A stretch of 64,000 nt of DNA from an uncultured Gammaproteobacteria bacterium. GTDB taxonomy: Bacteria > Pseudomonadota > Gammaproteobacteria > Steroidobacterales > XN24. The notes under the pieces are model-generated. The model worked only from the letters and a program-made list of their open reading frames with translations. It did not search any database and was not told where the DNA came from. Positions 5,318 to 54,694 of this stretch are shown in pieces. The position numbers and the translations under genes are program-made. Each line of letters begins with the position of its first letter. The first letter of the stretch is position 1. The stretch covers positions 1 through 64,000 of the forward strand of contig CAMYOC010000049.1 of the NCBI GenBank assembly GCA_947259915.1, written 5' to 3'.

Positions 5318-5632
5318 ATGTTCTGCGTGGCCTACCGCTTCCATCCGCTCGAGGAGGATGACACCGCGTTCATCGCCTGCTGGAAGGAGATGACTCAGCT
5401 CATCGAAAGCGAGCTCGGCGGCCTCGGCTCGCGTTTGCATCGGACCGAGGACGGCGACCTTTACGCCTATGCTCAATGGCCCGACCGGGCCAGCTGGGAA
5501 CGCATGTGGGAGACCGAGGACAGCGGCCGCATGGCCGAGCTCACCGAGTACTGGCGCGAGCTGGCCGGACCCTCGGAGATCGTTTTCGCCGGCGACGTGG
5601 TCGAAGACCTTCACGTGCCCGGCGGGGCCTGA
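5318..5632 (+). CDS. Antibiotic-biosynthesis-monooxygenase-like (ABM) protein
   Basis: A 104-residue protein that fits the dimeric alpha/beta-barrel (ABM) fold: FCVAYRFHPL and LYAYAQWPDRASWERMW are typical first-strand and W-x-x-x-W helix motifs. Members range from heme-degrading enzymes to quinone monooxygenases and proteins with no known activity, so function is open. AAGGAG lies about 9 bases before the ATG. The gene ends about 50 bp before the start chosen for the next one. Confidence 0.7.
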   Translation: MFCVAYRFHPLEEDDTAFIACWKEMTQLIESELGGLGSRLHRTEDGDLYAYAQWPDRASWERMWETEDSGRMAELTEYWRELAGPSEIVFAGDVVEDLHVPGGA

Positions 5633-5682
5633 GCGGTCCGGCGGGCCGTCTCTGCCACTCCACCTTGCAACAACATCCGCCC

Positions 5683-6744
5683 TTGTCCGCAAACGAATCG
5701 GCGCCCCGGGTCTGGGTCCTGCTGGGCAAGGGCAAGGGTGGCAACGTGCAGATGCTGAATCTGGCCGAGGCCCTCGGCTGGCCCTATGAGACGCGCCAGC
5801 TCTATCACAACGTACTCAATCGCGTGCCCAATCTGTTGCTCGGTGCGTCCGCGTTGAGCGTCGACCGCTCGCGTTCGGATCCGCTCGAGCCGCCGTGGCC
5901 GGACCTGGTGATCGCGGCCTCGCGCCGCAGTGCGCCGGTGGCGCGATGGATCCGCAAGCAGTCCGGCGGTCGCAGCCGTCTGGTGCATCTGTTCCACACT
6001 CAGGCGCCGCTGGATGACTTCAATCTGGTCATCACCCTGCCACAATACCGCTTGCCGAAGCGGGCCAACATCCTGCATCTGCACAGCGCGTTGAACCGCA
6101 TCGACCCGGACCGACTGGTGCGGGACGCGGCGCAATGGCGAGCGCAATTCGCATCACTGCCGCGCCCCCATATCGCGCTGATCGTCGGCGGCACCAGTTC
6201 CTCGTATGTCCTCGATCCGGCCACCGCCGCACGGCTGGGACGCGAGGCGAGCGCCGAGGCCCGTGATGCCGGCGGTTCGCTGTTGATCAGCACGACGCCG
6301 CGCACGCCGGCCGCGGCAGCGGATGCGTTGTTCGCGGACATCGACGCGCCGGCCTTTCGTTATCGCTGGCAGGCGGAGGATCCGGACAATCCCTACTTCG
6401 CGCTGCTCGCGCTGGCCGATCGCTTTATCGTCACCGTTGACAGCGCCTCGGTGCCGGTCGAGGCCTGTGCCAGCGGCAAGCCGGTGGCGTTGTTCGAATG
6501 GCCACGACGCCAGGCGAGCGGCCCCTGGCAGCGTCTGCTCAAGCGCTCGCCGCTGCGACAGCTTTACCAGGCGCTGCTCTATCTCGGGCTGTTCAAGCCT
6601 GCCAGGGACTTCGACGCCTATCACCGGATCCTCAGGGAGCGCGGTCTCGTCAGTCGACTTGGCGAGACCGCGGCAACACCACGTCAGCCGCTTGAAGACG
6701 GTCTGGCCGTGGCCGTCGAGCGGATCAGCGAACTGGTAAAATAG
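5683..6744 (+). CDS. ELM1-family (DUF1022) glycosyltransferase-like protein
   Basis: About 353 residues of the family named after plant mitochondrial fission protein ELM1. Bacterial members are common in lipopolysaccharide and surface-glycan gene sets and look like GT-B glycosyltransferases. Diagnostic features are VWVLLGKGKGGNVQ near the start, PPWPDLVIAASRRSAPVARW, RPHIALIVGGTSSSY, and the C-terminal nucleotide-sugar style segment FIVTVDSASVPVEACASGKP. The start is uncertain: TTG at 5683 or TTG at 5665, neither with a strong ribosome site. A longer frame back to 5476 overlaps the previous gene and lacks family similarity. A second ELM1 domain is fused to another protein at 13793-16180. Confidence 0.85.
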   Translation: MSANESAPRVWVLLGKGKGGNVQMLNLAEALGWPYETRQLYHNVLNRVPNLLLGASALSVDRSRSDPLEPPWPDLVIAASRRSAPVARWIRKQSGGRSRLVHLFHTQAPLDDFNLVITLPQYRLPKRANILHLHSALNRIDPDRLVRDAAQWRAQFASLPRPHIALIVGGTSSSYVLDPATAARLGREASAEARDAGGSLLISTTPRTPAAAADALFADIDAPAFRYRWQAEDPDNPYFALLALADRFIVTVDSASVPVEACASGKPVALFEWPRRQASGPWQRLLKRSPLRQLYQALLYLGLFKPARDFDAYHRILRERGLVSRLGETAATPRQPLEDGLAVAVERISELVK

Positions 6745-6787
6745 CGCGCTTGTCCTTGCTTGACGGGCCCGGCTTGGAATCTTGATT

Positions 6788-7768
6788 ATGCCCACAGATC
6801 ACAGCACCCAGACCGCCGACGACGCGCCCGACTCACGCGCGATCTTTGTGGTTGGGGCAGGACGTAGCGGCACCAGCACCATCACCCGCGGTCTGCAGGC
6901 GCTCGGCGTCGAGCTGGGCGATCGCCTCAAGGCGCCGACGGAGAAGAACCCGACCGGCTTTTTTGAGGACCGGGATCTGCTACGTATCGCCAAGCGCGTG
7001 CGCAGCGAGCTGGGGCTGCGCGCAGAGAGCGTGTCGCTGATCGATCCGGGACAGTGGGGATCGCCGGCGCTGGAGGCCCTGACCAGCGAGGCGGAGGACA
7101 CCATCCGGCGGCGCTTCGGCCGCTACCCGCTGTGGGGCTTCAAATATGCGCAGACGCTGCGCATGCTGCCGTTCTGGGAATCTGTGATGGCGCGGACCGG
7201 CGTCAAGCTCGCTTTTGTGCTTGCCGCGCGTAATCCGTTGAGCGTGGCCCGCTCGCGCAGCAAGCTCGACCCCTTGCGCGGGCTGCAGGAGAAGACCGAT
7301 CTGGAGTGGCTGGTCAACGTCGTCCCGTATTTCCGGCGACTTGCCGGATATCCCTTCGTGGTGGTGGAGTACGACTTGTTGATGGAAGACCCCCGTGCCC
7401 AGCTCACGCGGATGGCGACGGCGCTGGATATCCCGTTGAACGAGGCGAGCCGGCGGGGCATCGAGGAATTCGCCAGCGAGTTTCTCAAACACGGGATGCG
7501 TCACACTCGTTTCGTCGACGCGGACCTGGAGCGTGAACCGCGCCTCAATCCACTGACCCGCGACGCCTATCGCTGGCTGCGCCGGCTGGCCACCGACGAA
7601 ATCAGCGCCGATGACGCGGCGCTATGGCAGGACTGGGCCCGGCTCGAGTCACGTCTGGCCGAGACGGCGCCGGCACTGCGTCATGTCGATTATCTGGAGG
7701 CGGAAGCCCGCCGCCATCGTGGCGGCGCGTTGGGCCGGCTGGCGGCAAAGGTGTTCGGCCGAGGCTGA
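6788..7768 (+). CDS. Sulfotransferase-family protein
   Basis: About 326 residues with the 5' PAPS-binding loop at the N-terminus (FVVGAGRSGTSTITRGL) and a later conserved arginine/serine stretch, ARNPLSVARSRSKLD, matching the 3'-phosphate binding region of sulfotransferases. Members transfer sulfate from PAPS to sugars or other hydroxyls. The acceptor is unknown. It follows the ELM1-family gene after 43 bp on the same strand, so the two may be co-transcribed and act on the same glycan. The ATG at 6788 is preferred over TTG at 6782. Confidence 0.85.
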   Translation: MPTDHSTQTADDAPDSRAIFVVGAGRSGTSTITRGLQALGVELGDRLKAPTEKNPTGFFEDRDLLRIAKRVRSELGLRAESVSLIDPGQWGSPALEALTSEAEDTIRRRFGRYPLWGFKYAQTLRMLPFWESVMARTGVKLAFVLAARNPLSVARSRSKLDPLRGLQEKTDLEWLVNVVPYFRRLAGYPFVVVEYDLLMEDPRAQLTRMATALDIPLNEASRRGIEEFASEFLKHGMRHTRFVDADLEREPRLNPLTRDAYRWLRRLATDEISADDAALWQDWARLESRLAETAPALRHVDYLEAEARRHRGGALGRLAAKVFGRG

Positions 7769-10351: not shown

Positions 10352-11182
10352 CTAACGCCGTTGCCGGCGTTCCATGCTCTGTATCAGCACCTCGAGCTCG
10401 TCCGGGTCGAGATCACCGTCGCCGTTCTTGTCTGCGCTGGCAAAGTCACTCTCCGGAAACCACTGGACCCCGTCGCCGCTGGCGGCTAATTCGCTGATCG
10501 AGGCGCCGCCGCTGTTGTCGGCATCGATTTGCTGAATCCATAACTCGGTCCGGCTGAGACCGCCTGTACCCGGGAGCGCCCCATCAGCCGTAGTGGTCAC
10601 GGACGCTACCTCCGGCGAGCGGCCGCCTGACCCGCCCACACCTGTTTCTATGCCGGGAGTCCCGGCCGATAGAGTTTCCGCGTTTGGCGTTGATGCCGTC
10701 TCCGCTTCTGCAGTTGTCGACAATCCGGCCGCTGACGTTGGTGCCATCTCCGCCGCCGGGGCTGCAGACAATCCGGTCGCCGGTGTTGGCGGAACCTCCA
10801 CCGCAGGAGTGACTACCGTTACGGCCTCTGGTGTTGACGCCACCTCCGCGGCTGTGGCTGGTGCCATGCCGGTCGCGGGGATTGCTGCAGTCTCGCCGGA
10901 TGCCGGGGTTGCCATCCCCGCCCCTGGCACGGTCTCTGCCGTTGCATCCGCCTGCACCCGGCGCTCGGCCTCGCTGATCAGGCCATCACCGTCGGTGTCG
11001 TAATCGGCGAACGATTGTTCGATGCGCCGGTTGAATTCCATGTCTGCGTAGTAGGCCGCCCGGAGTTCATAGAGCGACACATAGCCGTCGCCGTTTGCAT
11101 CGGCCCGGTCCACCAGTTCGTCGGCGTTCACCGGGAACGCCGCCAGCACGGCGACAATGGTGATGAGACGTTGTGCCATCAT
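10352..11182 (-). CDS. Secreted EF-hand calcium-binding protein with a low-complexity linker
   Basis: About 276 residues starting at the adjacent ATG codons 11182/11179, which place a signal peptide (RLITIVAVLAAFPVNA) at the N-terminus. Two EF-hand loops follow directly (DANGDGYVSLYE and DTDGDGLISEAE), then roughly 120 residues of Ala/Thr/Pro/Glu-rich repeats (units such as AAEMAPTSAAGLS), then two more EF-hand loops near the C-terminus (DADNSGGASISE and DKNGDGDLDPDE). The layout suggests an exported calcium sensor or binder with two separated EF pairs. The 10134-10351 gap upstream of its stop holds no clear gene. Confidence 0.85.
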   Translation of the reverse strand: MMAQRLITIVAVLAAFPVNADELVDRADANGDGYVSLYELRAAYYADMEFNRRIEQSFADYDTDGDGLISEAERRVQADATAETVPGAGMATPASGETAAIPATGMAPATAAEVASTPEAVTVVTPAVEVPPTPATGLSAAPAAEMAPTSAAGLSTTAEAETASTPNAETLSAGTPGIETGVGGSGGRSPEVASVTTTADGALPGTGGLSRTELWIQQIDADNSGGASISELAASGDGVQWFPESDFASADKNGDGDLDPDELEVLIQSMERRQRR

Positions 11183-11544
11183 GACAGACCGTCCTCGGCG
11201 CGCAATAATGGTGTCAGGTGAGATGGTAATATCATTGCGGATACTTCGTTCAGGCAACATTGCCGTAATTCTCATGCTCTATCAGGCTGTAGTAGCCTAA
11301 CATTGAGCATAGAAAAAAGGTGTCGGGTGAGGTGGTCAGGGTTTATTTATCAAGACGATTAATCTGACCCCCGCTCAGCATCAGGCTTTTTATTCGCTCT
11401 AGCTGATCAAGCTCCGGACACCACAGACTGGTTCCAGCCCAGATTGCCGCTTCATAGACGACCGCTACCGGACGTTTGCAGCCTGTTTGAGAATCTCAGT
11501 TGGGTCGTAGTGAACCTCTGATCGGCTTAGCAGACGCCGGTCGC
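11183..11544. other. 362-bp gap with repeats and a hairpin, no gene
   Basis: No coding frame here is convincing. It contains two near-identical 20-bp direct repeats (11210-11229 and 11319-11338) and an imperfect hairpin between them (11274-11310). A TAATCTGACCCC stretch near 11360 resembles sequence often found beside short mobile repeats. The whole looks like the remains of a small repeat element. Confidence 0.4.
11210..11338. repeat. Direct 20-bp repeats flanking a hairpin
   Basis: GGTGTCAGGTGAGATGGTAA at 11210-11229 and GGTGTCGGGTGAGGTGGTCA at 11319-11338 agree at 17 of 20 positions. Between them, 11274-11310 folds as ATGCTC/GAGCAT with an inner AGGCT/AGCCT stem. This is a compact repeat-hairpin-repeat structure of unknown origin. 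Confidence 0.5.
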
Positions 11545-12273
11545 TCACGCCGCTCTTAGCGCGTGGCGCAAAAAATGCGGGTGGATCCGCCCCATGGCCA
11601 CCGCCTTGACGATGTCAGCACGATGGACGAACCCTGCCGTCATTGCCTCGTGGAGCCATTCTTCCCATTGCGCCGTCATCGGGTGTTGCGGACGTTTCCA
11701 CGGCTGCTCGCGAACGTGGCTGAAATGGATCAGACGCGTGTCGTCCCTGACCATGTTGTAGTGGTTCCAGCGCGGATCGATGGCCTGGATTAGCGCCGGG
11801 TCCACCCAGGCCAGACGGATAAAATCCTTGTAGCGGATCTGACCCGGACCCGGCTCGGCGGTGTTGGGCACCACCGGATCGAACATCGTCTCCGGATCCC
11901 AGTCCTTCAGCCGCGCGCAGTCGAGGACCATCACGCTGGTCTCGTTGCGCGGCGCGACCGGCTCGCCGGCAAACGTCCCCTCGATATTGCGCACGATGCC
12001 GATGGCGTGTGGCGGCTGCAGCTGCGCGGCCAGTTCCACCACGTCCGCGAGCACCAGCTGGTCGGCATCCATATAGATGCCGGTGCCCTGATAGGCGCAC
12101 AGCCTGGGCACGGTAAAGCGGACAAAACCGAACCGTGTGCCGCCCTTGCGCTTGTGTGTCTGGCAACCGGCGATGATCTCGATCTCGGCGCTGGTGTGTT
12201 TGCGGATCGAATATTCCAGTACCCGTTGCGCCACGTATTGACTGGGATCGGTGCCGATGACGATCTTGATCAT
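11545..12273 (-). CDS. Glycosyltransferase family 8-like protein
   Basis: A 242-residue protein starting MIKIVIGTDPSQYVAQ, with a metal-binding D-x-D motif in GIYMDADQLVLADV (residues 69-71) and the later substrate region TSVMVLDCARLKDW and HYNMVRDDTRLIHFSHV. This is the pattern of GT8-like or nucleotide-diphospho-sugar transferases acting on surface glycans. It is the last gene of the leftward set that starts at 16180, with 43 bp to the oxygenase gene. Its core resembles the N-terminal domain of the large fusion at 13793-16180, so the two may have arisen by duplication. Confidence 0.75.
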   Translation of the reverse strand: MIKIVIGTDPSQYVAQRVLEYSIRKHTSAEIEIIAGCQTHKRKGGTRFGFVRFTVPRLCAYQGTGIYMDADQLVLADVVELAAQLQPPHAIGIVRNIEGTFAGEPVAPRNETSVMVLDCARLKDWDPETMFDPVVPNTAEPGPGQIRYKDFIRLAWVDPALIQAIDPRWNHYNMVRDDTRLIHFSHVREQPWKRPQHPMTAQWEEWLHEAMTAGFVHRADIVKAVAMGRIHPHFLRHALRAA

Positions 12274-12316
12274 GTTGCACTCTCGGCGGCGCCGGCAGCA
12301 GCCCGCCCCTCGGAAA

Positions 12317-13021
12317 TCATGCGACCTTGCGCAGGAAACGACGCACCCGGGCGACCGGGCTGCCGCTGTTGACGACGACGATAAACACCTTTCTTAGCTC
12401 ACCTTCAGGGCAGCAGATCTCGCGCACGCCGTGCCAGGAATTCTTGCGCTGCATAAAGATCAGGCTGCGGTTACCCAGCGCGTCAGCGCCAAGCACGCGG
12501 TCAAAGTCATCAAAGCCGGGCGCCGAATCCCGCCGGAAGCGGCCTCCATCGTCGAGGATCAGCGTCTCGCCGCCCCACTCCGTGCGCCAGTCCTCGGCCG
12601 TGTTCAGATAAAAGATATGCGAGCCCAGCTTGTGGCGGGCGTCACAATGGGGCGAGACGGAGCAACCGTTGGGCGTGTAATGCCAGTGGTAACTGAGATC
12701 CAGCAGACGCACACCGAATATGCGGCGCAGAAATTCCCGGTAGCGTGGACCCCTTAGCTCGTCGACGAAATCCTGCCACGGCGCTGGCACCACGACTTTG
12801 TCGCTGTACTCCAGCGTATAGCGGTCATGGCTCTGCTGACCGTGTGCGCGCTCGACACCAAAGACCTTTTTGAACAACGCTATTCCGGGCAGATTGTCGC
12901 GCAGCGCCTGGTAACCCGCAGCGGTCAGCAGGCCTTCCGGATTGAGCCAGGGATAGGGCTGCTGTTGGCGAAAATACTCGCCGTCCAGCGCGTCCATCTT
13001 CTCGTAGTTCAGGTATTCCAT
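12317..13021 (-). CDS. 2-oxoglutarate/Fe(II)-dependent oxygenase-like protein
   Basis: About 234 residues. The iron-binding facial triad is visible as H-x-D in SVSPHCDARHKLGSH and the distal His in MQRKNSWHGVREI, with a following arginine suited to bind 2-oxoglutarate. The spacing and GGETLILDDGG strand match the double-stranded beta-helix of prolyl-4-hydroxylase-like enzymes. ATG at 13021 is chosen because it begins the conserved part and lies 5 bp after the stop of the upstream gene. In this setting it probably hydroxylates a sugar or a lipid-linked intermediate, but that is inference. Confidence 0.8.
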   Translation of the reverse strand: MEYLNYEKMDALDGEYFRQQQPYPWLNPEGLLTAAGYQALRDNLPGIALFKKVFGVERAHGQQSHDRYTLEYSDKVVVPAPWQDFVDELRGPRYREFLRRIFGVRLLDLSYHWHYTPNGCSVSPHCDARHKLGSHIFYLNTAEDWRTEWGGETLILDDGGRFRRDSAPGFDDFDRVLGADALGNRSLIFMQRKNSWHGVREICCPEGELRKVFIVVVNSGSPVARVRRFLRKVA

Positions 13022-13026
13022 GGTGT

Positions 13027-13800
13027 TCAGACCCTGTTCCCGGACCGGTTGCTGTGGATCCAGCGCGCGAGCGCGGCCTGAGCCAGACGCTTGACCCGGC
13101 CGGTCGGGATCAGCTCGCGTTGCCAACGCACGGCCAGCGTCTCATCCAGCGCATAGGCGATCGGCTTTCCGGTCTCCACCGTGAGCGAGGAGATCGCCTC
13201 GTCGGAGATACCTTCGAGCAGCTTGCGTATCGCTCTTACGCTGGTCTTGTGGGCCACGACCAGCACCCGCTCACCGGCGCCGAGGGCCGGGACGATGTCC
13301 TCTTCCCAGCAGGGCAGGACCCGTCGCAGCGTGTCCTGCATGCTTTCGCCCCGGGGCAGCGACTCCGGCTGGAGTTGCGCATAGCGCGGATCGTTGCCCG
13401 GAAACCGCGGATCGTCTTCGGCGACTGACGGCGGACGCTGCGCATAACCGCTCTGCCAGGTGGCGAACTGCCGGAGACCGAACTCCCGGGCCGCCTGCTG
13501 ACGGCTCATGCCCTGCAGGACGCCGTAATGGCGTTCGTTGAGACGCCAGCTCCGTTGTACGGGCAACTCTGGCTGGTCCATTTCCGTCAGCACGATATCC
13601 AGTGTCTCTTCGGCGCGCCGCAGCCAGGATGTCAACGCGATATCGAATTCGTATCCGGCTTCGCGCAGGATGCGGCCCACGGCGCGGGCCTGATCGCGGC
13701 CGCGCGCATTGAGATCCACATCGCTCCAGCCGGTCATGCGCCGATCCCGATTCCACTCGCTTTGGCCGTGACGGACGATAACCAGGTTTGCGTCAGCCAT
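13027..13800 (-). CDS. gpmA: 2,3-bisphosphoglycerate-dependent phosphoglycerate mutase-like
   Basis: 257 residues starting MADANLVIVRHGQSEWN, with the phosphohistidine RHG motif, RRMTGWSDVDLNARG and LNERHYGVLQG as in dPGM. The usual interconversion is 3-phosphoglycerate to 2-phosphoglycerate in glycolysis. The second histidine motif reads AHKTSVRAI where the family normally has AHGNSLRAL, and the C-terminal substrate loop is also altered, so the enzyme is divergent. It overlaps the upstream fusion gene by 8 bp and sits in a glycan locus, which hints at a dedicated phospho-sugar or phosphoglycerate role. The gpmA symbol describes the family, not a proven function. Confidence 0.8.
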   Translation of the reverse strand: MADANLVIVRHGQSEWNRDRRMTGWSDVDLNARGRDQARAVGRILREAGYEFDIALTSWLRRAEETLDIVLTEMDQPELPVQRSWRLNERHYGVLQGMSRQQAAREFGLRQFATWQSGYAQRPPSVAEDDPRFPGNDPRYAQLQPESLPRGESMQDTLRRVLPCWEEDIVPALGAGERVLVVAHKTSVRAIRKLLEGISDEAISSLTVETGKPIAYALDETLAVRWQRELIPTGRVKRLAQAALARWIHSNRSGNRV

Positions 13801-16180
13801 TACCCGGCTCCAGCATCGCTCGCACCCGCGCCGCAACGTGCTCTGCTTCGCGCAGCGCCGGCCGCCCACCGGGCGCGAGCTCGCGCCCGAACATCTGTGC
13901 AACGCCGGCGTCGACCAAGGCCCGATGCAACAATGAAGCCTTACGGCGCGGCCGCACCCAGCCCCGATCGATCAGACGCGCGCAAAGATATTGCAGGCCA
14001 CGCTGCGGCCGGATGGTGCCACGCTTGTTCAGCCGCGGTTTGCGCGATCGGCGCAACACCCATTCGGCAAGACGCGCCCGCGCTCCGGCCCGGCGCTCGG
14101 GCAGCGGGTAGATATACAAGGGCTTGCCGGCGGCGGAGGCTTCGCTGAGCATGGATTCACTCTCGCCGGTGACCACCAGGATGTCGGCCAGCGCCAGATA
14201 GCCCGCATAGGGATTTTCGGTCGCGTCTGGCGCCCAGCGGTGGAGCGCATTATTGGGTCCAAGCGCTTGCTCCAGCGCATCGGTCGCCGCGGTGCTTGTG
14301 CGCGGACTGGTGATGGCAAACACCGAACCGCCGAGCGCGCCGGCAAAGGCACGGACTTCCTCGCCCATAGTCGCCGCAGCGGACGAGTCGCAACGATGCA
14401 GGGCCGAGTCACCGCCAACGATCAGCGCGATGCGCGGTCGCGGCGCGTTACCAAACAGGCCCTGCCAGCGCGCGGCCGCAGACTCGATCGCGGCGCGGTC
14501 AAACGGATTCAGCGGCGCCAGTGTCTGTAGCCGATGAGGATGGGCGAACTGGCGAAAGTGGGCGCAGCCAACTACCAGATCGAAGTGCTCCGCCACTTCG
14601 CCGCCCTTGCGTCCCAGGTGGACCAGACGGCTGCCGCCGGCATTCTGCGCGCCGATCCAGCGGGCCACCGGCGCGCTGCGCCTGCCGACCGAAATCACCA
14701 GATCCGGCCACGGTGGTGTCAGCAGGTCCGAGCCGCGGCGATCCACGCCACGCAGACTGGGACCGAGCAGCCCGTTGCTGAGGTAATTGAACAGATTGAA
14801 ACGCAGCTGCTTGACCTCGGTCGGCCAGCCCAGGGCTTGCGCCAGCGCCCGGGATTGTATCGAATGCCCGGCCTTATCGTCCGCCAGCACCCACACCCGG
14901 GGCTGTTCGCCCAGACAACGACCACCCCCGTGATGGTCCCATGACAGTCGGCCGAAGCGGTGCCGGGTGCGGATTGTCAACCGCCAGTGAACCAGCGGAT
15001 GCCGGCGGGCGGCGCCGTCGATCAGCGCCAGCCACCATGCCTGATCACGGGTCCGGCGTCGGGACTCATCAGCGGCACCAGGATCCTGGTCATCGATCAC
15101 CAGCAACACGAACTTCGCGGCCACTGCGAACATCTCGTCGAGCAGCCAGGGCACATCCTCGTCGGGCAGATATTCCAGCAGCCGGCTGCAGATGACGCCG
15201 TTCGCCGGCCGCGGCATCGTACCCGGTGGACGACGCAGCGGATTGTGCCGCGATGCGTCGACCCCGGCGATGGTATCGCCCAAGGTGTAATGCACCAGAT
15301 CAGGGTCGCCGGCCTGCGCCATGAGTTCGGGCAGACTGCGCCAGACCGCGGCTGGCGACGGCCTGACGGCACTCCGCGCCGGGCCGTCCGTCTCCGCCGT
15401 CAGCGCCAAAAATTTTCGGCTCGGGCGTTCAGCGGTGAACGGCTGGAAGCCTGCTGCGTCTGCGTCATGCTCGAGGGCCTCCCAAACCGGGGCGACCGGA
15501 TTCGCCTGATAGACGAATTGCCGCGGGAAGGGCCGCCAGGGCTGTGTCTGTAACACGGTGAAATGGATCAGATGCGAATGGCCTGGACGATACTCGTCGT
15601 CCCGGGCGTTCCAGCCGTGATCGATCGGACCCCACAGACCGCTGATCCTTCGCGCGCGCGCTTCCAGGCGCTTGCGCCGCTCCCGGCGCACCGCTGCCAG
15701 CGGCCACACCGTGGCCATGCGCGCGCAGTCGACCAGCATCACTGACGTGTCGCGGTCGGAGATCGACATAAAACCGTGCTCACCCATGGGCGTATCGAAC
15801 AGGTCGGCCGGATCGCTGAGATAGACCTGGTCCACGTCGTTATAGATGGCGCGCCCGGTGCCGCCGGCCAATTCGGGGATGGCAAAGCGATAGTTGGTAA
15901 AACCGGTCAGCCAGCGCCGCGGATCAAAACCCGGCAGCTCTTTCATCAGCGTGATCTCGTAGACGCGCGCAGGATCACGCACCTGCTCGACCGACCAGAT
16001 AAAAACGCGCTCGGCGCGCTGCTGCGCGGTCTCGGTGCCGACAAAGATCCGCACCGGCGCCCGCTCGCTGGGCACAAACCCCTCGCGCACGCCCAGCACC
16101 ACGCGCTCCAGATCGAAGGGCGTGGTCGGCGGACTGGATTGCTCGATACCGGCCAGAACGGCCTGGCGCTCGGCTACCAT
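13793..16180 (-). CDS. Three-part fusion: GT-like, methyltransferase-like and ELM1 domains
   Basis: A 795-residue protein. Residues about 43-260 resemble a GT8-like glycosyltransferase (RIFVGTETAQQRAERVFIWS; D-x-D in AIYNDVDQVYLSD at 115-117; SHLIHFTVLQTQPW). Residues about 275-410 look like the back half of a class I methyltransferase (ANGVICSRLLEYLPDEDVPW, a motif-IV style region) without an obvious SAM-binding GxGxG loop. From about 428 the rest is an ELM1 domain (PPWPDLVISVGRRSAPVARW, RPRIALIVGGDSAL, ILVVTGESESMLSEASAAGKP). It starts the leftward glycan operon, is followed by the mutase gene with an 8-bp overlap, and faces the ABC exporter across 116 bp. No other protein in the window has this arrangement. 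Confidence 0.8.
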   Translation of the reverse strand: MVAERQAVLAGIEQSSPPTTPFDLERVVLGVREGFVPSERAPVRIFVGTETAQQRAERVFIWSVEQVRDPARVYEITLMKELPGFDPRRWLTGFTNYRFAIPELAGGTGRAIYNDVDQVYLSDPADLFDTPMGEHGFMSISDRDTSVMLVDCARMATVWPLAAVRRERRKRLEARARRISGLWGPIDHGWNARDDEYRPGHSHLIHFTVLQTQPWRPFPRQFVYQANPVAPVWEALEHDADAAGFQPFTAERPSRKFLALTAETDGPARSAVRPSPAAVWRSLPELMAQAGDPDLVHYTLGDTIAGVDASRHNPLRRPPGTMPRPANGVICSRLLEYLPDEDVPWLLDEMFAVAAKFVLLVIDDQDPGAADESRRRTRDQAWWLALIDGAARRHPLVHWRLTIRTRHRFGRLSWDHHGGGRCLGEQPRVWVLADDKAGHSIQSRALAQALGWPTEVKQLRFNLFNYLSNGLLGPSLRGVDRRGSDLLTPPWPDLVISVGRRSAPVARWIGAQNAGGSRLVHLGRKGGEVAEHFDLVVGCAHFRQFAHPHRLQTLAPLNPFDRAAIESAAARWQGLFGNAPRPRIALIVGGDSALHRCDSSAAATMGEEVRAFAGALGGSVFAITSPRTSTAATDALEQALGPNNALHRWAPDATENPYAGYLALADILVVTGESESMLSEASAAGKPLYIYPLPERRAGARARLAEWVLRRSRKPRLNKRGTIRPQRGLQYLCARLIDRGWVRPRRKASLLHRALVDAGVAQMFGRELAPGGRPALREAEHVAARVRAMLEPGNG

Positions 16181-16296
16181 CAGCGGGGTCTCGGGTGGCT
16201 GCGGATGAACCGGGTATTATACGCGAACCCGGTTTGCCGAGCCGTGGCCGGGCCTGCCCCGGCGCATGGCCCGGCGCGCCCTCGAGAGAACTCTGC

Positions 16297-18003
16297 ATGA
16301 AGTTCCTGATCCACATCATGCGCGCCTATCCGGCGCGTACCCTGATCACCCTGGCTGCGCTGCTCGTCGCCGGCATCGTCGCCGGCGTCAGCCTGACCGC
16401 CCTGCTGCCGGTCCTCAATCTGGCGACCGACCCGCAAACCGCCGGTGATGACAATGTGCTGGTCAGGGCGCTGAGGGCTATCGGTCTGACCCCCACCCTG
16501 GGTGTTCTGCTGTGGGTGCTGGTGATCGGAATGGCTCTGAAGAGCCTGATCACGCTGTTCGCCAACCGGCACGTCGGCTACACGGTGGCGCAGATCGCCA
16601 CCGACCTGCGGCTGAACCTGCTGCGGGCCCTGCTCGAAGCGCGCTGGGACTACTATGTTCATCAGCCCGTCGGCGCACTGAGCAATTCCATGGCCACCGA
16701 GGCAGCCCGTGCCGCCAATGCCTATCTGGACGGGTCGCGCACCGTCGCGCTGTTGATCGAAACCCTGGTCTATGTGGCCGTGGCGATGATGGTGTCCTGG
16801 CAGGCCACCCTGGTGGCCCTGGGGTTTGCTTCGCTGATCGTGCTCGGTTTTGGCCGCCTGGTGCGCACCTCCAAACGCGCCGGTAGCCGGCAGACCCAGC
16901 TGCTGCGTTCCCTGATCGGCCGTATGACGGACACCCTGCAGTCGGTAAAGGCACTCAAGGCCATGGGTCTGTCAAAGCGGGCCAATCTGGTGCTGGAAGG
17001 CGAGACCGGCCAGCTGAACAAGGCGCTGCGGCGCGAGGTCTTTAGCCGCGAGGCGCTGAGCTCTCTGTACGAGCCGGTGATCATCGGGTTCACCGCGCTG
17101 GGCTTGTTTGTAGCGGTCAGTCGTTTCGCGGTGCCGCTGGCGAGCATCCTGGTGCTGATCATCCTGCTGGTCCGCGTGATGGCGGCCCTGGGCAAGGTCC
17201 AGCGCTATTACCAGAAGATGGTCATCGATGAGAGCGCCTATTGGTCGATGACCGCGACGATCGAGCGCGCGGAGCAGGCGCGCGAAACCAGCCGGGGCGG
17301 TCTCAGCCCCGGCTTCGAGCACGCGATCGAATTGGAGCGAGTCTCGCTGGCCTTTGGCGACACGCCAGTGCTGCGCGACCTGAGCCTCACCCTGCCCGCC
17401 GGCGCGTTCACCACCATCATCGGCCCATCGGGTTCCGGCAAAACCACGATCATCGACATCCTCACCGGGCTGCTGGAGCCGGGGTCCGGCCGCGTGCTGG
17501 TCGACGGCTTGGATCTGAGCCAGTGCGATATCGGCCAGTGGCGCTCGATGATCGGCTATGTGCCCCAGGAGACCCTGCTGCTGCACGACACCATCGAGCA
17601 CAACATCACGCTGGGCGATCCGCAGCTGGGACCCGCCGACACCGAGCGGGCGCTGCGCGAGGCCGGCGCCTGGGACTTTGTCAGCGCGATGCCCGAACGC
17701 ATACAGTCGATCGTCGGCGAACGCGGCGGCAAGCTCTCCGGCGGCCAGCGCCAGCGCCTGTGTATCGCCCGCGCGCTGGTGCGTCAGCCAAAATTGCTGA
17801 TCCTCGACGAGGCGACCAGCGCTCTGGACCCCGACAGCGAAGCCGCGATCTGCGAGACTCTGGAGAACCTGCGCGGCCGGATCACGATCCTCGCCATCTC
17901 CCACCAGACCGGCCTGGCCGCGGTCGCCGACCGGGTATTGCGACTGGAGGCCGGTGCCTTGCTGGATTCGCCGGCCACCGATCTGATCGCCGGAGCGCCC
18001 TAG
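16297..18003 (+). CDS. MsbA-like ABC transporter, fused permease and ATPase
   Basis: 568 residues with six predicted membrane helices in the first 300 and a C-terminal ATPase: Walker A in IIGPSGSGKTTII (376-383), signature LSGGQRQR (from 480), Walker B LLILDEATSALD and the switch His in ISHQTG. This is the layout of lipid-A, lipid-linked oligosaccharide or peptide exporters that act as homodimers in the inner membrane. The ATG at 16297 is preferred because the membrane domain begins there; a frame open further upstream has no similarity. It is transcribed divergently from the glycan operon and is its obvious export partner. Confidence 0.9.
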   Translation: MKFLIHIMRAYPARTLITLAALLVAGIVAGVSLTALLPVLNLATDPQTAGDDNVLVRALRAIGLTPTLGVLLWVLVIGMALKSLITLFANRHVGYTVAQIATDLRLNLLRALLEARWDYYVHQPVGALSNSMATEAARAANAYLDGSRTVALLIETLVYVAVAMMVSWQATLVALGFASLIVLGFGRLVRTSKRAGSRQTQLLRSLIGRMTDTLQSVKALKAMGLSKRANLVLEGETGQLNKALRREVFSREALSSLYEPVIIGFTALGLFVAVSRFAVPLASILVLIILLVRVMAALGKVQRYYQKMVIDESAYWSMTATIERAEQARETSRGGLSPGFEHAIELERVSLAFGDTPVLRDLSLTLPAGAFTTIIGPSGSGKTTIIDILTGLLEPGSGRVLVDGLDLSQCDIGQWRSMIGYVPQETLLLHDTIEHNITLGDPQLGPADTERALREAGAWDFVSAMPERIQSIVGERGGKLSGGQRQRLCIARALVRQPKLLILDEATSALDPDSEAAICETLENLRGRITILAISHQTGLAAVADRVLRLEAGALLDSPATDLIAGAP

Positions 18004-54119: not shown

Positions 54120-54151
54120 CTCATGCGCGAACCCCTAACACGGAGATTGTC

Positions 54152-54694
54152 ATGGCGAAGAAACCTGCATCGCGGAAGAAAACCGCAAGCAAGAAGAAAC
54201 CGGTGCGTAAGAAGAAGGTAGTGCGCAAGGCGAAGGCGAAGAGGAAGGTCGTACGTAAGACTGCGGCGAAGAAGCGGCCGGCCACCAGGAAGAAAGCGGC
54301 GAAAAGGAAAGTAGCCAAGAGGAAGGCCACCAAGAAGAAGGCCACGCGCAAGAAGGTAGCCAAGAAGAAGGCCACCCGGAAGAAAGCGACCAAGAAGAAA
54401 GCCACGCGCAAAAAGGTAGCCAAGAAGAAGGCCACCCGAAAGAAAGCGACCAAGAAGAAAGCCACGCGCAAGAAAGCGACGCGCAAGAAAGCCACGCGCA
54501 AGAAAGCGACGCGCAAGAAAGCCACGCGCAAGAAAGCCACGCGCAAGAAAGCGACGCGCAAGAAAGCGACGCGGAAGAAAGTAGCCAAGAAGCGGCCAGC
54601 CGCCAGGAAGAAGGCGTCGAGGAAGAAAGTCGCCAAGAAGCGGCCAGCTGCCAGAAGGAAGGTGTCGAGGAAGAAAGTCTCCCGCAGGAGATAA
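54152..54694 (+). CDS. Lysine/arginine-rich histone H1-like repeat protein
   Basis: 180 residues composed almost wholly of K, R, A, T, V with no acidic residue. The middle (about residues 55-145) repeats KKATR/KKATK and KKVAK units of five residues. Such proteins resemble eukaryotic H1 tails and AlgP-like bacterial DNA-binding proteins, and should bind DNA non-specifically in the nucleoid. A small N-terminal part (MAKKPASRKKTASKKK) also fits. No globular domain is visible. The gene stands alone with its own promoter and terminator. Confidence 0.85.
   Translation: MAKKPASRKKTASKKKPVRKKKVVRKAKAKRKVVRKTAAKKRPATRKKAAKRKVAKRKATKKKATRKKVAKKKATRKKATKKKATRKKVAKKKATRKKATKKKATRKKATRKKATRKKATRKKATRKKATRKKATRKKATRKKVAKKRPAARKKASRKKVAKKRPAARRKVSRKKVSRRR
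54311..54585 (+). repeat. 15-bp-period tandem repeats within the histone-like gene
   Basis: Units like AAGAAAGCCACGCGC recur every 15 bases, with longer 60-bp blocks repeated near 54370-54470. Such repeats allow copy-number change by slippage, so the protein length may vary between strains. Confidence 0.75.

Follow-up and report, generated by a model that had tools for sequence, protein, structure and literature searches.

A candidate locus for the assembly and export of a glycosylated sphingolipid in an uncultured gammaproteobacterium

Organization of the locus

The window, a stretch of 64,000 nucleotides from an uncultured gammaproteobacterium, carries five reading frames at 11545-18003 whose common product is the question addressed here. 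Four lie on the minus strand and the exporter gene lies on the plus strand (Table 1). An earlier note on this DNA had proposed a locus for the assembly and export of a surface glycan, and the present analysis supports that proposal in part, for an envelope glycoconjugate. We consider it quite likely that the product which these genes make and export is a glycosylated sphingolipid, its lipid being most probably ceramide, rather than lipid A or a polysaccharide carrier. The gene families, the clade of the exporter, the genome-wide association with serine palmitoyltransferase (Spt), and the presence of these genes in ceramide operons of relatives were all computed directly.

The GT8-like and oxygenase genes are separated by 43 bp, the oxygenase and mutase genes by 5 bp, and the mutase and fusion genes overlap by 8 bp; re-reading of the frames returned the same spacings as had been given before. 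The fusion and exporter genes are divergent, with a gap of 116 bp between them. A promoter and terminator scan of the locus gave nothing beyond chance. The gene set itself recurs beyond chance, as fusion plus oxygenase, with or without the exporter and the mutase, across phyla. The expectation that all five genes travel together is borne out for the fusion/oxygenase core, while the full set is not constant. This core is the common element. Beyond it, the exporter has a broader distribution that goes with sphingolipid genes, the GT8-like gene belongs to the same pool as a mobile member, and Binatota are the only group in which the mutase is found again.

Two further genes lie outside the interval first described. 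The second ELM1 protein is 41% identical to the ELM1 domain of the fusion. Homologues of the sulfotransferase-like protein (46-51% identical) are encoded directly after fusion-oxygenase in three relatives (L062, L065 and L157), and the gene probably belongs to the wider locus. An EF-hand protein with a long Ala/Pro/Thr linker (10352-11275) adjoins the locus; no association of this gene with the locus was found in relatives.

Table 1. Features of the locus and its surroundings, in window coordinates
Feature	Position	Strand	Basis or remark
Second ELM1/KdoT-type glycosyltransferase	5476..6744	+	PF06258 198 bits; true start probably near 5698
Sulfotransferase-like protein	6782..7768	+	PF13469 slightly below cut-off
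GT8-like glycosyltransferase	11545..12273	-	Paralogue of fusion N-terminal domain; DxD motif YMDADQ
2OG/Fe(II) oxygenase	12317..13021	-	PF13640; start placed by homologues
Bisphosphoglycerate-dependent mutase-like enzyme	13027..13800	-	TIGR01258 268 bits (cut-off 81.7)
Fusion glycosyltransferase, 795 aa	13793..16180	-	PF06258 193 bits (curated cut-off 27); GT8 weak
GT8-like GT-A domain of fusion	~residues 20-262, window 15395-16120	-	DxD motif, fold
Middle segment of fusion	~residues 263-425	-	Between the GT-A and GT-B domains
ELM1/KdoT-type GT-B domain of fusion	residues 426-795, window 13796-14905	-	PF06258
MsbA-like ABC exporter	16297..18003	+	Start placed by homologues; ATG seen there

The fusion glycosyltransferase

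The largest of the minus-strand genes had been described as a GT/methyltransferase/ELM1 fusion. Its GT8-like and ELM1 domains stand, but the methyltransferase part is not supported. The match to the ELM1 family is far above threshold, while PF01501 (GT8) stays under its cut-off of 24.3 in both GT8-like proteins of the locus (14.3 and 17.6 bits). The NDVDQ (DxD) and TSxRT motifs of the fusion are conserved in at least 13 relatives from several phyla. In Foldseek searches, the AlphaFold model (pLDDT 86.9) matched the GT8 structure 3tzt (TM 0.61 by target length) and many GT-B enzymes. On the model, the fusion is two predicted glycosyltransferases in one chain, a GT-A joined to a GT-B. Residues ~263-425 gave no Pfam match and a best methyltransferase match of E=0.2, and the segment is absent from the Binatota homologue, all of which leaves a functional methyltransferase domain unsupported.

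ELM1 proteins were proven to be glycosyltransferases in 2024-2025, and KdoT moves Kdo from CMP-Kdo in vitro (PMC10936431, PMC12856342). The GT-B half of the fusion resembles KdoT of Acinetobacter baumannii in its family (PF06258, called ELM1-like in PMC10936431 and PMC12856342), in its GT-B fold and in the Arg-Thr of the SRRT motif, whose Arg was shown to be important (PMC10936431, PMC12856342). The motif reads SPRT in the fusion, the first Arg being substituted, while R627 and T628 are at least 90% conserved in the alignment. In contrast to KdoT, which is a single-domain enzyme of the LPS core, the ELM1 domain here shares a chain with a GT8-like domain and is associated with ceramide genes.

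A genome scan found the fusion in Nitrospirota, Myxococcota, Binatota, Deltaproteobacteria, Immundisolibacter and other Gammaproteobacteria, at an overall identity of ~43-53%. In Alphaproteobacteria, the same scan found the GT domain or ELM1 encoded as separate genes. Both are present, unfused, in the cultured alphaproteobacterium Hansschlegelia beijingensis DSM 25481 (L010), where the order is SPT-ACP-ACS-exporter, then ELM1 and GT domain; that they are separate but neighbouring points to a functional link between the two domains. A clue to the donor comes from other neighbours. Genes for a KdsB-like cytidylyltransferase and an HpcH-type aldolase adjoin the fusion in L062/L065 (G015, G028), and a NeuB-family synthase gene lies near the fusion or ELM1 in L004, L005 and L012, which suggests a CMP-activated ulosonic acid.

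The GT8-like protein, oxygenase and mutase

The separate GT8-like protein has the DxD motif expected of the family to which it had been likened, although its Pfam score falls short as given above. It is 28% identical to the N-terminus of the fusion, and its relatives adjoin ELM1 and exporter genes in many Spt-positive genomes.

The 2OG/Fe oxygenase is confirmed as such, with PF13640 (2OG-FeII_Oxy_3) at 28.9 bits against a cut-off of 27, and an intact metal triad; the HxD...H triad and the 2OG-binding Arg are invariant among the sequences of 10 relatives. The solved structures closest to it, by sequence and by fold, are the octosyl-acid oxygenases PasI and PolD, yet these are just ~19-20% identical and both act in nucleoside pathways. 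Since the PasI structure carried a bound octosyl-type 8-carbon sugar acid, a sugar acid is, by analogy, a plausible substrate for the oxygenase. Homology to KdoO was considered and dropped: KdoO was absent from the PDB sequence searches and from the top 50 fold matches.

The mutase had been called divergent, and it does score well below the canonical copy on contig 10 (383 bits to TIGR01258). As the genome holds that better copy, a glycolytic role of the locus enzyme was rejected. It retains the RHG and ERHYG motifs and the second His, but the conserved AHGNS loop is altered to AHKTS, which likely reflects a change of substrate. The mutase recurs once elsewhere, in a Binatota genome that also has a sphingolipid cluster, and there the gene order exporter-fusion-mutase-oxygenase matches that of the window. 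The two mutases group together in the tree (97/96), but as two long branches that meet, so a locus-specific mutase clade is tentative.

The exporter

The exporter has ABC_membrane and ABC_tran domains with intact Walker A, LSGGQ and Walker B motifs. It had been described as a divergent, MsbA-like protein, with the proviso that it might group tightly with the MsbA of lipid A. It shares the fold and general type of MsbA but is separated from it by both score and phylogeny, so that its identity with MsbA is ruled out. Against the MsbA model TIGR02203 it reaches 234 bits (cut-off 602), whereas the true MsbA of this genome, on contig 50 next to a CMP-Kdo synthetase-like gene, reaches 780. A tree was built with nine true MsbA proteins, further ABC exporters and exporters from the Spt or ELM1 clusters of relatives. 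The window protein and 12 from such clusters (for at least one, L006, spt is on a different contig) form a clade of 13 with 100/100 support, which a long branch separates from true MsbA and the further exporters. Tight grouping with the MsbA of lipid A, the outcome that would have spoken against the earlier proposal, is thus not seen, and the lipid concerned is most probably ceramide. Because a housekeeping mutase (contig 10) and MsbA (contig 50) are also present in the genome, the mutase and exporter of the locus appear to be second, specialised versions.

In L233 (G229) and L234 (G358), the exporter gene follows spt directly on the same strand. In genome G000, a second exporter of the same clade appears to be split across two contig ends (C29, positions 1-969, and the end of C38; L051, L052), and each half adjoins another ELM1 gene; the two contigs are probably adjacent, forming a second copy of the locus. 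The fusion-bearing sphingolipid clusters of L062 and L065 (G015, G028) show no exporter of this ABC clade; a Wzx-like flippase frame is present, and is a possible substitute.

Association with serine palmitoyltransferase

A survey of 369 Gammaproteobacteria, most of them MAGs, gave Spt above the cut-off in 21 genomes. Its identity rests on NCBIfam NF047599 (582 bits, cut-off 500), and serine palmitoyltransferases in the PDB also match. The exporter, counted at E <= 1e-75, was found in 18 of the 369 genomes, from 11 families, and 17 of these are Spt-positive (Fisher p 1e-24, shared ancestry ignored); the sole exception is a 75%-complete MAG. The exporter thus occurs almost only in sphingolipid-making bacteria. 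In nine of the 17 Spt-positive genomes, exporter and spt are no more than ~11 kb apart. The genome of the window itself has Spt (NF047599, 605 bits) on contig 10 (C10), while the locus is on C49, and physical linkage is seen in relatives.

Strong ELM1/fusion matches are equally restricted, with 11/369 genomes, all Spt-positive (p 1e-15, shared ancestry ignored), and the fusion itself is found in six, again all with Spt. The oxygenase is present in 12 of the 369 genomes; seven have Spt, and the five others score lower. Among the 97 nearer relatives, ELM1/fusion is present in 12, Spt in 13, and both in 11. Of the eight named fusion carriers, five have Spt above the curated cut-off, the Myxococcota and Deltaproteobacteria carriers have matches below it (~400 bits), and the Binatota carrier has an Spt fragment at a contig edge, adjoining CerR.

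Ceramide operons in relatives

The recurring neighbours of these genes in relatives are a fatty acyl-AMP ligase (ACS), a CerR-like reductase, an ACP and serine palmitoyltransferase. In Nitrospirota (L004) the order is ACS-CerR-ACP-SPT-FUSION, and in Immundisolibacter (L226) and G356 (L158) the same order is extended by the oxygenase. L064 (G028) shows ACS-CerR-fatty acid hydroxylase-FUSION-oxygenase-hydroxylase-CerS-like, and in L157 (G372) ceramide genes, FUSION, ELM1, oxygenase, sulfotransferase-like gene and exporter all fall inside 17 kb. The labels CerS, ceramide-kinase-like and nucleotidyltransferase denote distant homology to seeds named by position, and the CerS seed gave no match to the curated families. 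Around Spt in many positive genomes (L054-L068, L163-L166) there are several ELM1 paralogues together with GT8-like and sulfotransferase-like genes, which suggests a large, variable pool of glycosphingolipid genes.

These arrangements bear on whether the glycosyltransferases act on the same lipid as the exporter. The exporter accompanies Spt in several genomes that have no strong ELM1 (G139, G229, G279, G358 and G416), so that head-group and export are separable. The exporter is therefore likely a sphingolipid flippase of general use, and the genes for the glycosyltransferases and the oxygenase would be head-group modules that vary. The same genomes, and the presence of the oxygenase outside Spt-positive genomes, would also fit a locus in which the other genes glycosylate a capsule, exopolysaccharide or glycoprotein and merely share an envelope-gene neighbourhood with the flippase. 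This is unlikely, as the fusion and strong ELM1 genes are tied to Spt as tightly as the exporter is, and in both L158 and L159 no more than ~60 bp separate the end of the spt match from the start of the fusion match.

An LPS-core locus, in which ELM1 adds a third Kdo to lipid A like KdoT and the exporter is an auxiliary MsbA, is improbable. The established acceptor of KdoT is indeed Kdo2-lipid A (PMC12856342), and the genome, which also has a normal MsbA and KdsB, makes Kdo-lipid A. However, the exporter clade leaves out MsbA, the fusion is located in ceramide operons, and exporter and fusion follow Spt, a rare gene, and not LPS, which nearly all members of the class have. ELM1 proteins with weak matches, possibly those of the LPS type, track Spt poorly (just 3 of 14).

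A proposed pathway

For a glycosylated ceramide, we infer the acceptor, the donor, the order of steps, the oxygenase substrate, the role of the mutase and export itself as follows. The Spt cluster of contig 10 would provide the ceramide from elsewhere in the genome. Both halves of the fusion would act at the inner membrane: its GT8-like domain would use a UDP-sugar to add a sugar, and its ELM1 (KdoT-type) domain would use a CMP-activated donor to add a Kdo-like ulosonic acid. The result would be a short acidic glycan on ceramide, which two further enzymes, the separate GT8-like protein and the second ELM1 glycosyltransferase, may extend or vary. Hydroxylation by the 2OG oxygenase would fall on the sugar acid or, with lower probability, on the lipid, and the mutase could supply 2-phosphoglycerate or edit a head-group phosphate. 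Once complete, the lipid would be flipped to the periplasmic leaflet by the divergently transcribed MsbA-like exporter; a second Lpt-type system could then carry it on to the outer membrane. Tentatively, and with somewhat less than even confidence, the locus may provide sphingolipids with an equivalent of the LPS inner core: a GT8-KdoT fusion would build a ceramide glycan with a Kdo-like 8- or 9-carbon sugar acid, an oxygenase like PasI would hydroxylate it, and a dedicated MsbA-like flippase, widely conserved together with Spt, would export it.

The mutase feeding 2-phosphoglycerate into a ceramide phosphoglycerate head-group, like that of Caulobacter CPG2, is speculative; the "phosphoglycerate-bearing" product suggested earlier is unproven, and is made more sensible by the ceramide-phosphoglycerate lipids of Caulobacter (PMC11324152). 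That the product is mainly such a Caulobacter-like lipid, with the mutase as the source of 2-phosphoglycerate and little or no sugar, is doubtful: CPG2 does bear phosphoglycerates (PMC11324152), nucleotidyltransferase-like genes lie beside Spt here also and the mutase keeps its catalytic residues, but the locus has two to four glycosyltransferase domains, the mutase is present in just one other locus, and no ceramide-kinase-like gene was seen in the Spt region of the genome.

Relation to known sphingolipid systems

The Caulobacter ceramide/CPG2 cluster (CC_1152-CC_1168; PMC11324152) has in common with the clusters of relatives Spt, ACP, an acyl-ACP ligase, and CerR-like, nucleotidyltransferase and LptF/G-like genes, but as described (PMC11324152) it is without an ELM1, GT8-like or 2OG gene. 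Caulobacter CC_1166 is annotated as a potential flippase. The ceramide glycosyltransferases Sgt1/Sgt2 (PMC6445935) transfer a sugar to ceramide, the type of reaction proposed here; their description makes no connection with ELM1 or with a fusion of GT8 and ELM1 (PMC6445935). A search of the open-access literature found no ELM1, GT8-type enzyme or ABC flippase reported in bacterial sphingolipid clusters.

A 2024 paper described the transport of bacterial sphingolipids across or out of the inner membrane as unknown (PMC11324152). An exporter family that is nearly always alongside Spt in the sampled Gammaproteobacteria is a candidate for this step. With the proposed glycosylated ceramide, the reach of the ELM1 family would also go beyond LPS to ceramide, and glycosphingolipids bearing acidic sugars would be expected as a class from Nitrospirota to Gammaproteobacteria. 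In Caulobacter, sphingolipids influence polymyxin sensitivity and phage adsorption (PMC11324152, PMC6445935).

Elsewhere in the window, a long tandem low-complexity repeat (54121-54694) is open in reading frames of both strands, and its plus-strand frame may encode a lysine-rich histone-like protein.
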